From Candidatus Woesearchaeota archaeon (lineage in GTDB: Archaea; Nanobdellota; Nanobdellia; Woesearchaeales; UBA9642), in assembly GCA_003599145.1 (NCBI GenBank), contig QZIT01000006.1, forward strand, positions 310,001-374,000: 64,000 nucleotides of DNA. Direction: 5' to 3'. Below the pieces are notes generated by a model, which made no database searches, was not told the origin of the DNA, and saw nothing but the letters and a program-made list of their open reading frames with translations. The position numbers were made by a program, and so were the translations under genes. This document shows positions 16,770-50,071 of this stretch, piece by piece (position 1 is the stretch's first letter; each line of letters begins with the position of its first letter).

Positions 16770-16843
16770 GTTTTTTCAATAATGCCACGCTCCTTATAAA
16801 TGTTTTTATGGGAAACTTAAAAAGTAAAATGCTCCGGCCGGGA

Positions 16844-16865
16844 TTTTCGTGAATTTTTAATATCG
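16844..16865 (-). other. tRNA-Glu intron 3, T-loop, 22 nt
   Basis: The intron lies between A59 and T60. Exon TTCG pairs with intron CGAA, the bulges are AAC and AAT, the outer helix is the T-stem CCGGG/CCCGG, and a short inner helix (GA.ATT/AAT.TC) is closed by AAA. Removal gives the invariant loop TTCGAAT. Confidence 0.9.
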
Positions 16866-16886
16866 TTCGAACCCGGGTCTTTGCCT

Positions 16887-16921
16887 TTCTCCGAAAGGCC
16901 AGGGAACTTTTTCCAAGGCCT
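16887..16921 (-). other. tRNA-Glu intron 2, anticodon loop, 35 nt
   Basis: The intron is at the canonical position after nucleotide 37. Exon CTCT pairs with intron GGAG, the bulges are CGA and AAA, and the inner helix is GGCC/GGCC with GGAA/TTCC beyond it. Removal gives loop CTCTCGA. Confidence 0.9.
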
Positions 16922-16941
16922 CGAGAGGGCAAAATGATTGG

Positions 16942-17027
16942 TTGTCCCATCTTGTGCGCTGTTTCTTCTTTAGGGGCTTGAGCGAAGCGAAACCCCTGCT
17001 TTTGGTGCAGCTTTTTGCAAAAGATGC
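16942..17027 (-). other. tRNA-Glu intron 1, D-loop, 86 nt
   Basis: The intron sits between G19 and C20. In the bulge-helix-bulge, exon GTCC pairs with intron GGAC, the bulges are GGG (cut GG/G) and AAC (cut AA/C), and the inner helix is CATCTT/AAGATG extended by TGC/GCA. The interior holds a GC-rich hairpin closed by GGGG/CCCC. Confidence 0.88.
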
Positions 17028-17122
17028 CCGGACTACACTACCGGAGCATGCTATTAAGAAAAAGAGTTCTTTTTTAAATGTTATGGCAAAAGATTTATAA
17101 TCCCTCGTTTTATTCTGCAGTC

Positions 17123-17650: not shown

Positions 17651-17682
17651 ACTTTATATAATCCTTGTTGTTCGTTCTTTCT

Positions 17683-19818
17683 ATGAAAATATTGACCATT
17701 CATGCAGACTATATCAATTATGAAAGCACGAAAAAAGCCATAAAGTCTGCTGAAGACGCTGAAAAAGGAAAACAGGAAGTCAAAGATTGCTTGGTAGTTT
17801 TTACTGCAGTTGAAAAGCCTGATGAAGCTGATATTGAAGCTATCAGCGAAAAATTAAAAGAAGAAATTGAAAATGTCGCTAAACAAGTAAATGCAAAAAC
17901 AATAGTCTTATATCCTTATGCTCATTTGAGCAGTAATCTTTCAAATCCTGAAACTGCAGTTGCTGTTTTAAAAACAACTGAAAAGCTCTTAAAAGATTAC
18001 AAAGTGTATAGGGCTCCTTTTGGATGGTACAAAAGCTTTGAAATAAAAAACAAAGGGCATCCTTTAAGCGAATTAAGCAGGGAGTTTACTATTGACACTA
18101 AAAAAGAAAAAACAGAAAAACACGTTTTTGCATTGGAGAAAAAAAAGCTGTCCGATGAAGATAAAGTAAATTATACCACGGCATTGATTGCTGCAAAGGC
18201 AATCCTTGCAAAGCATAAAGGAAATATTGGATTAATAGGCATTAAAGGAGAAACTGCTTTTGTTGATATTGATGTTAAGTTAAACAATGCAGACATTCCT
18301 GCACTTGAAGCAGATATTCAGGCATTATTAAAAAAAGAAATTGCTATAAAAAAAGGAGCTGCAAAAGACGCTGAACATTTTCAAAAAGAGATTTTAGAGG
18401 ACATAAAACATGCACAAGTATATTCTTATGAAGACCTTGTTGTTGTGCCGTTGCATGAAAGTCCGTTTGCACCAACAAAAAACATCAAGTTTTGCAAGAT
18501 TGTTGAATTAGGAGGAGCGTACTGGAGAAACAATGCAGGCAATAAACAATTAACCAGAGTGTATGTCGTTGGCTTTGAAAATGATGAAGCAATAAAAGCG
18601 TTTGAGCAGAAAAAACAGGAAGCTGCATTGAGAGACCATAGAGTCATTGGAAAGCAGATGGATTTATTCAGCATGCAGGATGAAGCTCCCGGAATGCCTT
18701 TTTTCCATCACAATGGAACCATTATCTATAACGCACTTATTGAGTACACGACAGAAGAACTGCGCAAACTAAATTATGAAATCAATAAAACACCTATTAT
18801 TCTCAATAAAAAATTGTGGTTGCAGTCTGGACACTGGGACCATTATAAGGACAACATGTATTTTACCAAAATTGACAATCAGGATTTTGCAGTGAAGCCT
18901 ATGAATTGTCCTGGCAACATGCTTGTTTTCAAATCAAATGTGCACAGCTACAAAGATCTTCCTATAAAAGCAGCAGAGTATGGGTTAGTGCACAGGCATG
19001 AATTAAGCGGTGTTCTTTCTGGATTATTCAGAGTAAGAGCATTTACGCAGGATGATGCCCATGTTTTTTGCATGCAAGAGCAATTGGAAGAGCAAATTAT
19101 TGAACTTATCGAGCTTATCGACAGGGCGTATCAAAAATTCGGATTTGCTTACAGCGTCGAACTTTCCACTAAGCCAGAAAAGGCAATGGGAGACCCTAAA
19201 CAATGGAGCATTGCTGAAGACACTTTGGAAAAAGCATTGAAGAAGAAAAAGCTTGCCTATAAAATTAACCCAGGAGATGGAGCATTTTACGGTCCTAAAA
19301 TTGATTTTCACATTAAAGATGCCATTGGAAGAAGCTGGCAGTGCGGAACAATCCAACTGGATTTTTTCATGCCTGAAAGGTTTGATTTAAGCTATGAGGG
19401 AAAGGACAGCAAAAAACATAGACCGGTAATGTTACACAGGACTATTTACGGTTCTGTAGAACGATTCATGGGAGTTCTCATAGAGCATTTTGCAGGAAAG
19501 TTCCCTTTATGGTTAAGCCCTGTTCAGGTAAAGATTGTTACGGTTACCGATAGAAACATTCCTTTTGCAAGGCAAATGCTGCAGGAATTCCTTAAGCAAA
19601 ACATTCGCGTTGTTTTAGATGACCGAACAGAAACCATAGGCAAAAAAGTAAGGGATGCGCAAATGGAAAAAGTGAATTACATTGTAACCATTGGCGATAA
19701 GGAAGATGCCAGCAAAGCCCTTGCTATACGAACAAGAACAGGCGAAGTGCAGTTTAATGTCTCTTTATCTGCATTTTTAGAGCAATTGCACCAGGAAATA
19801 GCATCAAGAAAAATATAG
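17683..19818 (+). CDS. thrS: threonyl-tRNA synthetase, archaeal type
   Basis: Charges tRNA-Thr. It has the archaeal D-aminoacyl-deacylase-like editing domain (KILTIHADYINYE; FGWYKSFEIKNKGHPLSELS) in residues 1-140. The class II catalytic core has the zinc ligand in KPMNCPGNM, motif 2 in LVHRHELSGVLSGLFRVR, GDGAFYGPKIDF, and motif 3 in RTIYGSVERFMGVLIEH. The anticodon-binding domain follows (LSPVQVKIVTV; DDRTETIGKKVRDAQ). The length is 711 aa. The TATA box tttatataa (17653-17661) fixes the ATG at 17683; the in-frame TTG at 17665 would be inside the promoter. Confidence 0.97.
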   Translation: MKILTIHADYINYESTKKAIKSAEDAEKGKQEVKDCLVVFTAVEKPDEADIEAISEKLKEEIENVAKQVNAKTIVLYPYAHLSSNLSNPETAVAVLKTTEKLLKDYKVYRAPFGWYKSFEIKNKGHPLSELSREFTIDTKKEKTEKHVFALEKKKLSDEDKVNYTTALIAAKAILAKHKGNIGLIGIKGETAFVDIDVKLNNADIPALEADIQALLKKEIAIKKGAAKDAEHFQKEILEDIKHAQVYSYEDLVVVPLHESPFAPTKNIKFCKIVELGGAYWRNNAGNKQLTRVYVVGFENDEAIKAFEQKKQEAALRDHRVIGKQMDLFSMQDEAPGMPFFHHNGTIIYNALIEYTTEELRKLNYEINKTPIILNKKLWLQSGHWDHYKDNMYFTKIDNQDFAVKPMNCPGNMLVFKSNVHSYKDLPIKAAEYGLVHRHELSGVLSGLFRVRAFTQDDAHVFCMQEQLEEQIIELIELIDRAYQKFGFAYSVELSTKPEKAMGDPKQWSIAEDTLEKALKKKKLAYKINPGDGAFYGPKIDFHIKDAIGRSWQCGTIQLDFFMPERFDLSYEGKDSKKHRPVMLHRTIYGSVERFMGVLIEHFAGKFPLWLSPVQVKIVTVTDRNIPFARQMLQEFLKQNIRVVLDDRTETIGKKVRDAQMEKVNYIVTIGDKEDASKALAIRTRTGEVQFNVSLSAFLEQLHQEIASRKI

Positions 19819-20544: not shown

Positions 20545-20618
20545 GGGCCTTTAGCTCAGCTTGGTAGAGCAGCAGACTCTTAATCTGAAGGTCAGGGGTT
20601 CAAATCCCCTAAGGCCCG
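20545..20618 (+). tRNA. tRNA-Lys (CTT), intronless
   Basis: A 74-nt cloverleaf: acceptor GGGCCTT/AAGGCCC, D-arm GCTC...GAGC, anticodon loop CTCTTAA with anticodon CTT, T-arm AGGGG-TTCAAAT-CCCCT, and discriminator G. CCA is not encoded. The TATA box atttaaaaa at about 20512-20520 is placed for initiation at or just before the 5' end. The next gene starts 7 nt after the 3' end. Confidence 0.96.
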
Positions 20619-29870: not shown

Positions 29871-31210
29871 AGAAATTAGTGCTACTGTTAACATTGGTAC
29901 TTTTCCTTACAGTCATCGCTGTAAAGGCAGATTGTTATTTTGCTAATTCATGCAATGCAGGAGATGTTGCCTTTATCAGAGCTTCTGCAACGAATAATGC
30001 ACATGCAGAATTACGAACGCAATCAACTGCGGGATATCAGAATGTTTGCTGCCCCAACACTTGGAATTATACCTGCACTATTCCTGCGGATAGGGCATTG
30101 AAATTACAGGCAGTTACCAATTCACATGTACAGAGAGCAAGTTTAGCAACATATGCAAATGATGTTTGTATTAAAGGGGTAACGTATTACACTGCTGCAG
30201 GCGTTGCATGTAATGTTGGTGATGATTGTGTTTTGAAAATGAGTGGTTCAGATAATGCCCATATTGCAGACTGCACTGCAGGTGTTATTTGGGAAAGACT
30301 CTGCGTTCTTCCTTCAGTTAGCCCTTCACTGAATTTTCAATGTACACTTTCCAATGTAACTATAAAGCCTAATTGTGCAAACTGTAATGTAGGAGCAAAT
30401 ATTTCTCTTACAGGCTATGTTTCAGGAAATTGCTCTAATGTGAGAACAGTTCAGGTTGATGCAAGAAACGTTGCAGGTACTTGTGTTGTTAATGCATCTG
30501 GAGGCGACATTGCTGGTTTACGAGGAAGCTTATCCTTAGGCAATGATCTGGGAAACACGTTTATTAATACTTCATGGCTGGTTCCAGCTATCAATGCAGA
30601 TTGCCAAGGCCAGACAGTCAATGCAACCGTTGGCTTTTTGTTTAACAATACCAATCAGTTAGAGGGAGAAACAACTAATGCATATGGTGGTTTAACGTTT
30701 GCAGGTGGCTTTCCTATAGCCATGAGATGCGGAAATGTAAGTATCAATGGAGTAACTACGTTTGATCCTGCATGCAACGCAACAACACCACCGCCTAGCT
30801 TATTCTGCGGAGCTGCAGACAATTGTGTTTATGGCAATGAAACCACTGGGTTGAATCCAAGCTGTTATGGAAAGTTCAATACGAGATTGAATGAGAAAGG
30901 AAAGAGCATATGGTGCAGTGAGAGTAATTATTGGTGTCCTGAGAATTACGATTATAATCCTGCTACTCAGAAATGTGAGTATGGTACAACGATATGTGAT
31001 GAAGGGTATTTACCTCCAAGTCCAAAAGTGCCTCAAGTTACTTGCAATACTATCTTAGATATGATTCTGAATACTAGCAAGTGCTTTAATAATTATGTTC
31101 CTCCGCCAGAACCTTTGCCCTATGCTGAAGCTTGTTGCTATGACTTTAACTGGACAGTAAACGGAACAGATTATAATTATTATTCTGGAAAAGATATAGT
31201 TGTTTACTGA
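29867..31210 (+). CDS. secreted Cys-rich protein, 447 aa
   Basis: A signal peptide (residues 1-21, ending VKADC) leads into three degenerate repeats around (S/T)NNAHAEL, TNSHVQR and SDNAHIAD, each followed by a Cys. A beta-domain rich in N-x-S/T sequons follows, then a Cys-rich C-terminal third. There is no C-terminal membrane anchor. It overlaps the fibre gene by 4 bases (ATGA), implying translational coupling and probably a shared role at the cell surface. No known family. Confidence 0.65.
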   Translation: MKKLVLLLTLVLFLTVIAVKADCYFANSCNAGDVAFIRASATNNAHAELRTQSTAGYQNVCCPNTWNYTCTIPADRALKLQAVTNSHVQRASLATYANDVCIKGVTYYTAAGVACNVGDDCVLKMSGSDNAHIADCTAGVIWERLCVLPSVSPSLNFQCTLSNVTIKPNCANCNVGANISLTGYVSGNCSNVRTVQVDARNVAGTCVVNASGGDIAGLRGSLSLGNDLGNTFINTSWLVPAINADCQGQTVNATVGFLFNNTNQLEGETTNAYGGLTFAGGFPIAMRCGNVSINGVTTFDPACNATTPPPSLFCGAADNCVYGNETTGLNPSCYGKFNTRLNEKGKSIWCSESNYWCPENYDYNPATQKCEYGTTICDEGYLPPSPKVPQVTCNTILDMILNTSKCFNNYVPPPEPLPYAEACCYDFNWTVNGTDYNYYSGKDIVVY

Positions 31211-32922
31211 ACATCCAAAAGATTGATTATTGTACTTTTATCAGATTGAATTCTTTTATTTGCAAATGCCATTCCAATTTTCATATAGGCTACGTCTTTT
31301 GGTTGTGTTGGTACTAAGGGCGGATCATTCATGTTAGAAAGGTAGGCATGTACGTCATCTGCGTTTGTGTTTAATGCGCCACTAAGCTCTTGTAGTCTTT
31401 TATCAAATGCTGTGTGTGATCCACTAGTCATCCTAATATAAGATCCAACTAAATAATCTGCAGATATGTGATAGTTATGGCTTGCGCTCCATCCAGTACT
31501 TTTTCTAATAACAAAGCCAGGATCTGTCAATTGTAAACTGTCTGTCGTAACTGTATACATATCAATATCCATTATGTTTTCAAACCAATCTAATGTATTT
31601 TTAATACTGTCTTCTTCTAACTGTGTCCATCCCTGTAAATCTGTTGGCAGGGGAAAGTCAGAAAATCTAAACGTGATAGGGTAGGCATTAGGCCAAACAT
31701 CCTTCAACTCAGTTGCATCAACATCAACCATTTCCCCAGAAGGTATCTGATACTGCAAGGGTATCATGATTGCACTTTTTGTAGTAGTTCCAGCAATGCT
31801 TACAGGAGTTTTATAGTTATGAAAGCTTGGATGTTCTATGATGAGCGTGTAATCCTGAGCAGGTGCATTCAAAGAATAATTTCCCTGAGCATTGCTCTGT
31901 GTTTCCAACGTATCTGTTATTGTTGCAAGTTTAATCGTTGTACCAGGTAAAACTCCATCAAACGTATAGATTGTTCCGTTTACAGAAGGTGGTGCAATTG
32001 CTGTCCACGTAAACTGATTTGATTGTGCGGATAAAGCATTAAAAGCGTCGTTTGCAGTTATTTGCCTTTGTATGCTCTGTTCTGTTAAAGGATTCCAAAT
32101 GGCTGTGTCTCCATGGAACGTGATGTTTGCTGCTGTATATTGAGTAATATCATCATTGTTTATAGGCATAGCTACTTTGAGTGTTTCTCCAACATTTATT
32201 GTTGTATCTCTTATAGAACCAGTAAAAGAAGGCCCTCTGTTTCCTGTTATCATGATGTTTGCATCTTCATCAGGAACAATGGTTTCATCAAAGACATAAT
32301 TATTTTTCTGGGCAGTTATAGTTATATTATTCGTTGGTTTTGAAAGCGTTGATATGTTTGACGTTGAAGGGAATGTCCTTCCTGCATTATGCGTATTTCC
32401 ATCCATCAACACCATTTTCTTTGCAGATTGAAAATTGCCTGTTTGCATTCTTAGCAAGTAAACTCCAGCAGAAACACCATTGCCTCTGTCATCTGTTCCA
32501 TTCCATTCAATAGCATGATTTCCCAATTCTTGATAGCCATCAACAACAGTTTTTACTTTCTGCCCTAGAATGTTGAATATTTCTATGGAAACTCTTCCGT
32601 CTTTTTCCAAAGTATACGGAATGATAGTAGAGGGATTAAAAGGATTGGGATAATTTTGCTCTAATTGATAGGAAAAATTGCCGTTTGAAGCAGGCCCATC
32701 TAAAATGCCTGATACTGTAAGATTCAAAGAAAAATTTCCCTGGGCATCGGTTGTGTCTGAATCAAGAGCACTGCCATTATTTGCCATAACAACTGCGTTT
32801 GCAACGGGCTGAGAAACTGAACCGAATTTTCCATCCTGTACTTTTCCTGTTATGGTTGCAGCAGATACCTGTGCAACTGTCGTTAAGGCAAGTATGCTTC
32901 CCAGTATGCTCTCGAGCTTCAT
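31204..32922 (-). CDS. secreted protein with carboxypeptidase-like repeats and an internal FlgD/T9SS-type module
   Basis: A 572-aa protein. The signal peptide is residues 1-21 (ending QVSAAT). A carboxypeptidase regulatory-like domain at 23-75 has VANAVVMANN..TDAQGNFSLNL. At residues 87-175 is a module matching the FlgD Ig-like/Por-type sorting domain: NYPNPFNPSTIIPY, VSIEIFNILGQKV, GVYLLRMQTG. A second regulatory-like repeat near 320-390 (ITDTLETQSNAQGNYSLNAP) precedes an uncharacterised C-terminal 170 residues. In Bacteroidetes such modules are C-terminal; here it is internal. The TATA box at 32943-32952 fixes the start at 32922 rather than 32961. Bacterial origin of the module is likely (inference). 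Confidence 0.75.
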   Translation of the reverse strand: MKLESILGSILALTTVAQVSAATITGKVQDGKFGSVSQPVANAVVMANNGSALDSDTTDAQGNFSLNLTVSGILDGPASNGNFSYQLEQNYPNPFNPSTIIPYTLEKDGRVSIEIFNILGQKVKTVVDGYQELGNHAIEWNGTDDRGNGVSAGVYLLRMQTGNFQSAKKMVLMDGNTHNAGRTFPSTSNISTLSKPTNNITITAQKNNYVFDETIVPDEDANIMITGNRGPSFTGSIRDTTINVGETLKVAMPINNDDITQYTAANITFHGDTAIWNPLTEQSIQRQITANDAFNALSAQSNQFTWTAIAPPSVNGTIYTFDGVLPGTTIKLATITDTLETQSNAQGNYSLNAPAQDYTLIIEHPSFHNYKTPVSIAGTTTKSAIMIPLQYQIPSGEMVDVDATELKDVWPNAYPITFRFSDFPLPTDLQGWTQLEEDSIKNTLDWFENIMDIDMYTVTTDSLQLTDPGFVIRKSTGWSASHNYHISADYLVGSYIRMTSGSHTAFDKRLQELSGALNTNADDVHAYLSNMNDPPLVPTQPKDVAYMKIGMAFANKRIQSDKSTIINLLDVQ

Positions 32923-32984
32923 AGATGCTGCTAAGCGTTCTTTATTTATAAATGTTTCCATTTTTCTAACTACTAAGTAGTGAA

Positions 32985-47892: not shown

Positions 47893-48180
47893 ATGAGTAG
47901 ATTTTGGAAAACAACAGCATTAATTCTTGGTGCAGCTTCTTTGACTGCATTGCTTACACAGGAAATTCCCCATGTTTCTAATGAACAGAGTTGCGATATT
48001 GCAGGCTTGAATGTTGAGTTCTTGCCTAAACAGTATGAAGCAAATACTTTTTTTGCGCAGTCTGCTCCTGTTGGTTATGCTATTTTTGAAATGGACGGAG
48101 CAACGTTTGCTAAGCCAACAAATCAAGAATTAACAGAAGCAAGACAAAATGCAGCGGTTGTCATTATGGCGCTTAGATAA
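47893..48180 (+). CDS. small secreted protein, 95 aa
   Basis: Unknown family. An N-terminal hydrophobic segment (FWKTTALILGAASLTALL) gives a signal peptide or anchor; the rest is short and polar. A Shine-Dalgarno (AAGGTGAT) sits 5 nt before ATG 47893, and the TATA box is near 47839-47848; an in-frame ATG at 47878 is the alternative. It ends 8 bases into the convergent permease gene. Confidence 0.5.
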   Translation: MSRFWKTTALILGAASLTALLTQEIPHVSNEQSCDIAGLNVEFLPKQYEANTFFAQSAPVGYAIFEMDGATFAKPTNQELTEARQNAAVVIMALR

Positions 48181-50071
48181 AAGGCACATTCCTGTCTGTT
48201 TTTATGCCGTAGACAAAAACATAATTCCAGAACCATCCTTTTACTCTTTTCACTTCTACAGAAAACCCTGCTTCTCGAAACGCCTGTTTGATGATTTCAT
48301 TATTGGAAAGCCATTTTGGATTAGGCAATACCTTAAAAAAATCAACGTAATCTACCATGCATATTTTCCCTGAATCTGGCAAAATGCCGTTAAGGTCGTG
48401 GAGCACTTTTTTTACATCCTGAATATAGCTGAGCATGCCTACGGAAAATACCATATCTACTTCAGGAATTTCTGGATGCACTCTGTTCATCTGATGCACA
48501 TCATGCAAAACATAGACGTTGTTCAACCCTCTTTTCTTTATCCTTTTTTGCAGCAATGCAACATTGTTCTCTGTAAAATCTGTTGCGTAAATTATTCCAT
48601 TGCCCACTTTTTCAGACAATTGAACAGTTAATGTTCCTACACCTGCGCCAAATTCCAACAACCTTTTTCCCTGAACGTCGCTGAAAATATCAAGAATTTT
48701 TTTCCGTATTCTTTTAGGCAACAGCCAGTTTTCCATCCATAAATTCAACCCTGCAAAGAGGTTATTGAACCCTCTTGCTGTAGAAGGGTTGTGATAAAAT
48801 AAAAGCAATAAGTAAATAGGAATCCCAAATAATACAAAAGAAAGCCCTATTTCTAATAATCCCTGTGCTCCAGGAGTGAACAGAACCCAAAGCTCTACTA
48901 TGGCAATATAAATTAAGGATATGATTATTGGCCCAACAGTTCCAAAGGGCGCTTTGTAAGGCCTTACTCTGTAGGGTTGTTTATAGCGCAAAATAGGAAC
49001 AGTCATGATTATGGCAATATACATCAATAATGCCAGTGGCACTAAGATGCTTAACAGTGTTTTGTAAACGCCAAAACCAATAAACAAAACAATAACCGCA
49101 ACAACGGTTTGAAAGAATATCGCTTTGTAAGGTGTTTTATGTTTTGGGTGAACATCTGCTAATTGTTCAATAAACAGTTTGTCTCTTGCCAAAGCCAAAA
49201 GCAATCTTGGAGAGCCAACAATGCTTCCTGCTGCAGTGCCCAATAAAGAGAAAGCAATGCCAAAGCTGACAATTTTTACCCCTATAGGCCCATATACGTT
49301 GATAGCCATATCTGCAAAAGGCGCTGCTGACAACTGCTGCCATGGAATTATTCCTAAGGTAACAAAGGGAATTGCAATAACTAACACTGCAACAATGACC
49401 GTTGACCAGATAAGCGATTTAGGGATAACTTTCTCAGGATTATTGGTCTCTTCTGATAAAAAGCTGATATTTTCCCATCCAAATAAACTTTCCATAATGA
49501 AAAAGAGGCTTGCAAAAATCAAAATAAACGGCGTTGAAAAAAATGGCTGATAGTTTTCCGGTTGAACATGAAATACTGCAGGAGCTAAAACTGCTAAAAT
49601 CAATATGAGTGTTATTGATGCAAAAACGATTAATACTTTAGTGCTTCCTTCAATGCCCTTATAGGCGATGGTGTTAAGCAAAAAAATGAATGCAAGTGCA
49701 ATAGTTATTTTTAAGGCTGCAGGTGTTGATGCAGGAAAAACGAGAATGATTGCTGCAACAATTGCTAGCGTGATTCCTATATTGGAAACTATCCAAGCAA
49801 GCCATCCTATCAAAAAAGAAGGAAACCTTCCATAGGCTTGTTTGGCAAATTCATAGACGCCTCCTGCATTGGGAAACATTGATGCGAGCTCTGCAAATAA
49901 GGTAGATACATAAATGGCTATTGCTCCAAGAATAAGCCATGCGATAAGCGATGCGTTTCCTGATTTTTGTGCAGCTAAGGTAGTTCCAAAAAACAACCCT
50001 GTGCCCATCATAGAGGTTATGCCTAAGGCAATGATTGCAGGATAGCCTAAACTCCTCTTTAATTCAGCCAT
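48173..50071 (-). CDS. amino-acid permease (APC) fused to a SAM-dependent methyltransferase
   Basis: A 632-aa single ORF. Residues 1 to about 440 are a 12-helix APC-superfamily amino acid/polyamine transporter, starting LGYPAIIALGITSMMGTGLF with substrate-loop glycines and the GVYEFAKQAYG signature. Residues about 455-632 are a class I Rossmann methyltransferase: motif I LLEFGAGVGTLT, the acidic YATDFTENN, and DMVFSVGMLSYIQD with GKICMVDYVDF. The methyltransferase would lie in the cytosol at the end of helix 12. The coupling suggests modification of the imported substrate, or sensing; both are inference. The TATA box ttttaaatg near 50093-50101 fits the start. Confidence 0.88.
   Translation of the reverse strand: MAELKRSLGYPAIIALGITSMMGTGLFFGTTLAAQKSGNASLIAWLILGAIAIYVSTLFAELASMFPNAGGVYEFAKQAYGRFPSFLIGWLAWIVSNIGITLAIVAAIILVFPASTPAALKITIALAFIFLLNTIAYKGIEGSTKVLIVFASITLILILAVLAPAVFHVQPENYQPFFSTPFILIFASLFFIMESLFGWENISFLSEETNNPEKVIPKSLIWSTVIVAVLVIAIPFVTLGIIPWQQLSAAPFADMAINVYGPIGVKIVSFGIAFSLLGTAAGSIVGSPRLLLALARDKLFIEQLADVHPKHKTPYKAIFFQTVVAVIVLFIGFGVYKTLLSILVPLALLMYIAIIMTVPILRYKQPYRVRPYKAPFGTVGPIIISLIYIAIVELWVLFTPGAQGLLEIGLSFVLFGIPIYLLLLFYHNPSTARGFNNLFAGLNLWMENWLLPKRIRKKILDIFSDVQGKRLLEFGAGVGTLTVQLSEKVGNGIIYATDFTENNVALLQKRIKKRGLNNVYVLHDVHQMNRVHPEIPEVDMVFSVGMLSYIQDVKKVLHDLNGILPDSGKICMVDYVDFFKVLPNPKWLSNNEIIKQAFREAGFSVEVKRVKGWFWNYVFVYGIKTDRNVPFI

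Follow-up and report, generated by a model that had tools for sequence, protein, structure and literature searches.

The tRNA-Glu(CTC) locus

The 64,000-nucleotide window analyzed here (contig QZIT01000006.1, positions 310,001 to 374,000, assembly GCA_003599145.1) comes from a 1.3-Mb, 97% complete genome of a Candidatus Woesearchaeota archaeon and carries, on the minus strand at 17047-16830, a tRNA-Glu(CTC) gene in four exons (20, 20, 21 and 14 nt) separated by three introns (Table 1). The introns interrupt the D-loop between positions 19 and 20 (86 nt), the anticodon loop at the canonical position 37/38 (35 nt) and the T-loop between positions 59 and 60 (22 nt). Locus boundaries and intron lengths are exactly those of the original prediction, which had been made from the letters of the window without naming a strand and had taken the genome to be probably DPANN; it does belong to an order of Candidatus Woesearchaeota (DPANN), represented by 353 genomes in our comparison set. 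As had also been predicted, removal of the introns leaves a 75-nt tRNA-Glu: ARAGORN calls the spliced molecule tRNA-Glu(ctc), its acceptor, anticodon and T stems are complete, and it is 96% identical over positions 1-75 to the intact tRNA-Glu(CTC) gene of a genome from another family of the same order (G006). Because the spliced form matches this intact gene and bulge-helix-bulge (BHB) cores are present at all junctions, the triple-intron gene is, judged by its sequence, a real one and not a chance match.

The expectation that standard scanners might overlook the gene was borne out, as both ARAGORN and the Rfam tRNA model (RF00005) miss its unspliced form, and the sole tRNA that they report in the whole window is tRNA-Lys(CTT) at 20545. 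ARAGORN makes no call on the unspliced 218-nt locus or after removal of intron 1 alone, gives a false Phe(aaa) when intron 3 alone is removed, and sees the anticodon intron only once both noncanonical introns are out. Genome-wide, 23 tRNAs score above the Rfam cut-off, against a total of at least about 41, and the tRNA inventories of such intron-rich genomes are probably undercounted.

Table 1. Features of the tRNA-Glu(CTC) locus, in window coordinates
Feature	Coordinates	Strand	Length (nt)	Remarks
Putative TATA box TTTAAA	17073..17078	-		31 nt upstream of the mature 5' end; sequence match only
Exon 1	17028..17047	-	20	nt 1-19: acceptor 5' strand, D-arm 5' part, GG18-19
Intron 1	16942..17027	-	86	D-loop 19/20; strict BHB, GTCC/GGAC; inner helix 6 bp
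Shared core within intron 1	16970-17003	-		AAAAGCAGGGG...CCCCTAA
Exon 2	16922..16941	-	20	D-arm 3' part, anticodon stem 5' strand, CTC anticodon, G37
Intron 2	16887..16921	-	35	Canonical 37/38 (1-nt slip possible); central helix CTCT/GGAG; inner helix weak
Exon 3	16866..16886	-	21	Anticodon stem 3' strand, variable loop, T-stem 5' strand, TTCGAA
Intron 3	16844..16865	-	22	T-loop 59/60; central helix TTCG/CGAA; no adjacent inner helix (relaxed)
Exon 4	16830..16843	-	14	T60, T-stem 3' strand, acceptor 3' strand, A73; CCA not encoded
T-rich tract TTTTACTTTTT, possible terminator	16819..16829	-		Directly downstream of the gene; matched by its letters only

Splice-junction geometry

All three junctions present a 4-bp central helix flanked by 3-nt bulges (3-4-3), and when the intron letters are shuffled the chance of obtaining such a helix at the fixed place is 0.012, 0.020 and 0.016 for introns 1, 2 and 3, respectively, or jointly about 4e-6. 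The inner helices are 6 bp long in intron 1, 2 bp in intron 2 and 0 bp immediately beside the bulge in intron 3, and the forced BHB fold of intron 2 lies 3.6 kcal/mol above the minimum free energy structure. The central helices named in the original prediction are all present, and its description of a strict BHB is correct for intron 1 but goes too far for introns 2 and 3.

Introns in other tRNAs of the genome and its relatives

A hand-built census of the stretches surrounding tRNA-like sites, which supplemented the Rfam matches with a pattern for T-loop introns and a parse that takes BHBs into account, and which missed about seven isoacceptors, yielded about 41 tRNAs, some 30 of them with introns, at about one intron per tRNA; an intron at T-loop position 59/60 is present in at least 17 of these. 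The tRNA-Glu(CTC) gene does not stand alone: the genome holds at least three other probable triple-intron tRNAs, and there are more elsewhere in the order. Explicit resplicing of Lys(TTT) and Pro(TGG), with three introns removed from each, gives valid tRNAs; Ile(TAT) is probably a further case, with its first two junctions not placed to the nucleotide and the chosen ones forming 2-bp helices only. In other genomes of the order, probable triple-intron tRNAs include Ile(TAT) of G020, Val(TAC) of G009 and several in G102, and a scan of the order with the T-loop-intron pattern found the present genome and G318 to be the most loaded, at 9 matches each (reversed-pattern control, 0). A search for another Glu(CTC) gene, suggested alongside the original prediction, found none in the assembly (about 97% complete), and the separate Glu(TTC) gene at C1:120611 has two introns, one in the anticodon loop and one of 73 nt in the T-loop.

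The Glu(CTC) genes of the same family differ in intron content: that of G003 is intact, those of G004 and G005 contain the anticodon intron only, and that of G002 has D-loop and anticodon introns at positions identical to those described here and no T-loop intron. Because G002 has these two introns without the third, we infer that the T-loop intron was gained on the branch of the present genome, the D-loop and anticodon sites being shared with its relative.

The census also turned up individual tRNAs of unusual form. A tRNA-Leu with D-arm and T-loop introns (G000:C4:66700-67550) has the anticodon loop CTAAGGA and hence the anticodon AAG; A34 tRNAs are unusual in archaea. A tRNA-Trp(CCA) on the minus strand (G000:C3:152255-152357) has an apparent intron of 29 nt where T-stem and T-loop meet (53/54), its BHB helix being TCTG/CAGA, and a tRNA-Ser(TGA), likewise on the minus strand (G000:C1:112556), has a D-loop intron of about 45 nt.

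A core shared among introns

The 73-nt T-loop intron of Glu(TTC) and the T-loop intron of Gln(TTG) are 90% identical over about 60 nt, and a core, AAANGCAGG...CCCCTWA, is common to the T-loop introns of Glu(TTC), Gln(TTG), Met(CAT) and Arg(CCT) and to the D-loop intron of Glu(CTC). The core pattern has five matches in the genome, all of them within these five tRNA introns (control, 0). Since one core is thus common to introns of five tRNAs, in the T-loop and in the D-loop, the simplest reading of the sequences is that introns moved between tRNAs and between positions by transposition. An independent case occurs in another family of the order, where Glu(CTC) and Lys(CTT) of G018 (C1:292284) contain homologous 76-nt T-loop introns that are unrelated to the core found here.

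Splicing endonuclease and ligase

One EndA gene was found in the genome (L031:1105-1788), encoding a 227-residue protein with one N-terminal (PF02778) and one catalytic (PF01974) domain and with the Y/H/K triad present at the residues aligned with M. jannaschii 1a79, together with one gene for the RtcB ligase (E 1.6e-168). The nearest solved chains are Nanoarchaeum equitans alpha (3iey_A, E 5.8e-39) and then M. jannaschii alpha4. Residues Y160-K161 of the specificity loop (ASL) of ARMAN-2 EndA (4fz2) lie in an insertion that this enzyme lacks, the corresponding part of A. pernix 3p1z_B exceeds it by 9 residues, and in an alignment of 30 EndAs, drawn almost entirely from the order, no sequence has the insertion. 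No second subunit was found in the genome, where the only other match (E 0.13) has stop codons; among 60 relatives searched, 57 have a PF01974 match and two a second one, the pair in G042 being fragments. On the question of subunit type, raised with the original prediction, the only EndA gene found is single-subunit and alpha4-type by sequence, without the ARMAN/crenarchaeal loop, although a very divergent beta subunit could be missed.

The enzyme bears a lysine-rich N-terminal extension of about 57 residues, also present in some relatives (G002, G041). As a cause of broad specificity this extension is not general and was rejected, because G018, with its T-loop introns, and G020, with its triple-intron Ile, have plain enzymes of 177-178 residues.

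The original prediction had further taken the locus to imply that the endonuclease is relaxed in its choice of sites. The lone EndA found has no loop of the type linked to broad specificity, and the 3-4-3 core is kept at all three junctions, so that a relaxed mode of recognition is plausible at introns 2 and 3 and is not needed at intron 1. Either this alpha-type EndA is broader in specificity than thought, or the 3-4-3 core is enough when the whole pre-tRNA is the substrate, or a divergent partner escaped the search.

Interpretation and alternative explanations

We consider it very probable that tRNA-Glu(CTC) is a functional gene, with a precursor containing three EndA-type introns gained stepwise, the core-sharing D-loop intron by transposition. 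Transcription would probably proceed from the gene's own TATA box, after which the product of the one EndA gene, an alpha4-like enzyme of the homotetramer type, would cleave all three BHBs (D-loop, anticodon loop, T-loop). Ligation of the exons by RtcB would then give the 75-nt tRNA, to which CCA would be added post-transcriptionally. The introns would have arisen one by one, the T-loop intron while introns of this kind spread through the tRNAs of this genome, and the core of the long D-loop intron, common with the T-loop introns of four other tRNAs, would derive from intron transposition. Several observations weigh against this interpretation: intron 3 lacks an inner helix next to the bulge, and the better fold of intron 2 is in a register other than BHB; the literature describes alpha4 enzymes as having narrow specificity (PMC6379350), yet the BHBs of introns 2 and 3 are imperfect; tRNA-Glu(CTC) need not be essential, since Glu(TTC) can read GAG as well; and, with the assembly about 97% complete, an unseen intact Glu(CTC) gene or an unseen second EndA subunit is possible.

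The imperfect BHBs, and the presence of a Glu(TTC) that could wobble to GAG, are also what would be expected of a decaying pseudogene, broken by insertions and leaving GAG to be read by Glu(TTC) alone. We regard this as very improbable, given that all stems are intact once the gene is spliced, that the sequence agrees at 96% of positions with a gene from another family and that all three insertions terminate exactly at EndA-type junctions. Furthermore, 16 other tRNAs, including the apparently single-copy His and Asp, have a like T-loop intron, and such junctions must therefore be spliced for the cell to survive. A larger share of doubt attaches to the enzyme: the introns could be real and their cleavage could depend on a second, unrecognized EndA subunit in a heterotetramer rather than on a homotetramer. 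Structural beta subunits diverge and can be missed, and the closest solved chain is the alpha subunit of Nanoarchaeum equitans, but the single PF01974 gene in nearly every relative, like the stop codons in the only other match of the genome itself, makes such a partner unlikely. It is also improbable, though less so than gene decay, that the introns are kept for another role, for example as guide or regulatory RNAs with the core GCAGG...CCCCTWA as the functional part. That five introns have a conserved core containing a hairpin would fit such a role; against it, the core-bearing introns matched no family in an Rfam search, the core is absent from most introns of the genome, and the matches to its pattern in relatives sit outside tRNAs and look like chance.

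Comparison with known systems

Thermoproteales average 0.84 introns per tRNA gene against 0.21 over 217 archaea, and Pyrobaculum calidifontis has 71 introns in 46 tRNA genes (PMC8450103). The tRNAs described here resemble those of Thermoproteales in that a single tRNA can carry as many as three BHB introns, at noncanonical as well as canonical sites, in being missed by scanners and in sharing similar introns across tRNAs; they differ in belonging to a DPANN genome in which no second EndA subunit and no crenarchaea-specific loop were found, and in having T-loop 59/60 as the dominant noncanonical site. Transposition of tRNA introns in Thermoproteales has been described by Fujishima et al. 2010, as cited in PMC4033280 and PMC4090602; that case is similar in that tRNAs unrelated to one another have homologous introns, which also occupy differing positions, whereas here a core is shared inside otherwise different introns, four in T-loops and one in a D-loop, of one genome. 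ARMAN-2 (Micrarchaeum; PMC12397907, PMC6379350) is likewise a DPANN archaeon with noncanonical tRNA introns, but its EndA is of the epsilon-2 type with the ASL loop, unlike the single-unit, 227-residue EndA without the Y160-K161 insertion. Nanoarchaeum equitans, another DPANN archaeon and the source of the closest solved EndA chain, has split tRNAs and an (alpha-beta)2 enzyme, in contrast to the cis introns found here, where no beta subunit was found.

The original prediction had called the gene unusual on the ground that multiple and noncanonical introns are known mainly from Thermoproteales. We found no report of triple-intron tRNAs or intron transposition in Woesearchaeota in the open-access literature, though earlier reports may exist; within the genome and its order the phenomenon is recurrent. 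Triple-intron tRNAs and intron transposition are already-known kinds of event, and it is the mismatch with EndA that could be more. In Thermoproteales, Nanoarchaeum and ARMAN-2, intron-rich, multiply interrupted tRNAs have been linked to an EndA that is heteromeric or carries a loop. The present lineage shows the same genomic outcome with what appears to be only a plain alpha-type EndA, which makes the supposed co-evolution of EndA type and tRNA intron number testable with one recombinant enzyme. We tentatively propose, while judging it slightly more apt to fail than to hold, that in this order of Woesearchaeota a lone, loop-free, alpha-type EndA processes intron-rich tRNAs, with about one intron per gene in some genomes, many of them in the T-loop and with relaxed BHBs, and that these introns spread by transposition. 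If true, this would contradict the accepted view that an EndA must be heteromeric or have a specificity loop to splice broadly.

Other genes in the window

A threonyl-tRNA synthetase gene (window 17665-19818) combines an archaeal editing domain (residues 7-140) with a bacterial-like core that has many Firmicutes among its best matches. At 31204-32961 the window encodes a 585-residue protein whose residues 104-184 match a T9SS type A sorting-like domain (E 7.8e-10), which is odd in an archaeon, and at 48173-50071 an amino-acid permease and a methyltransferase domain are fused in one open reading frame.
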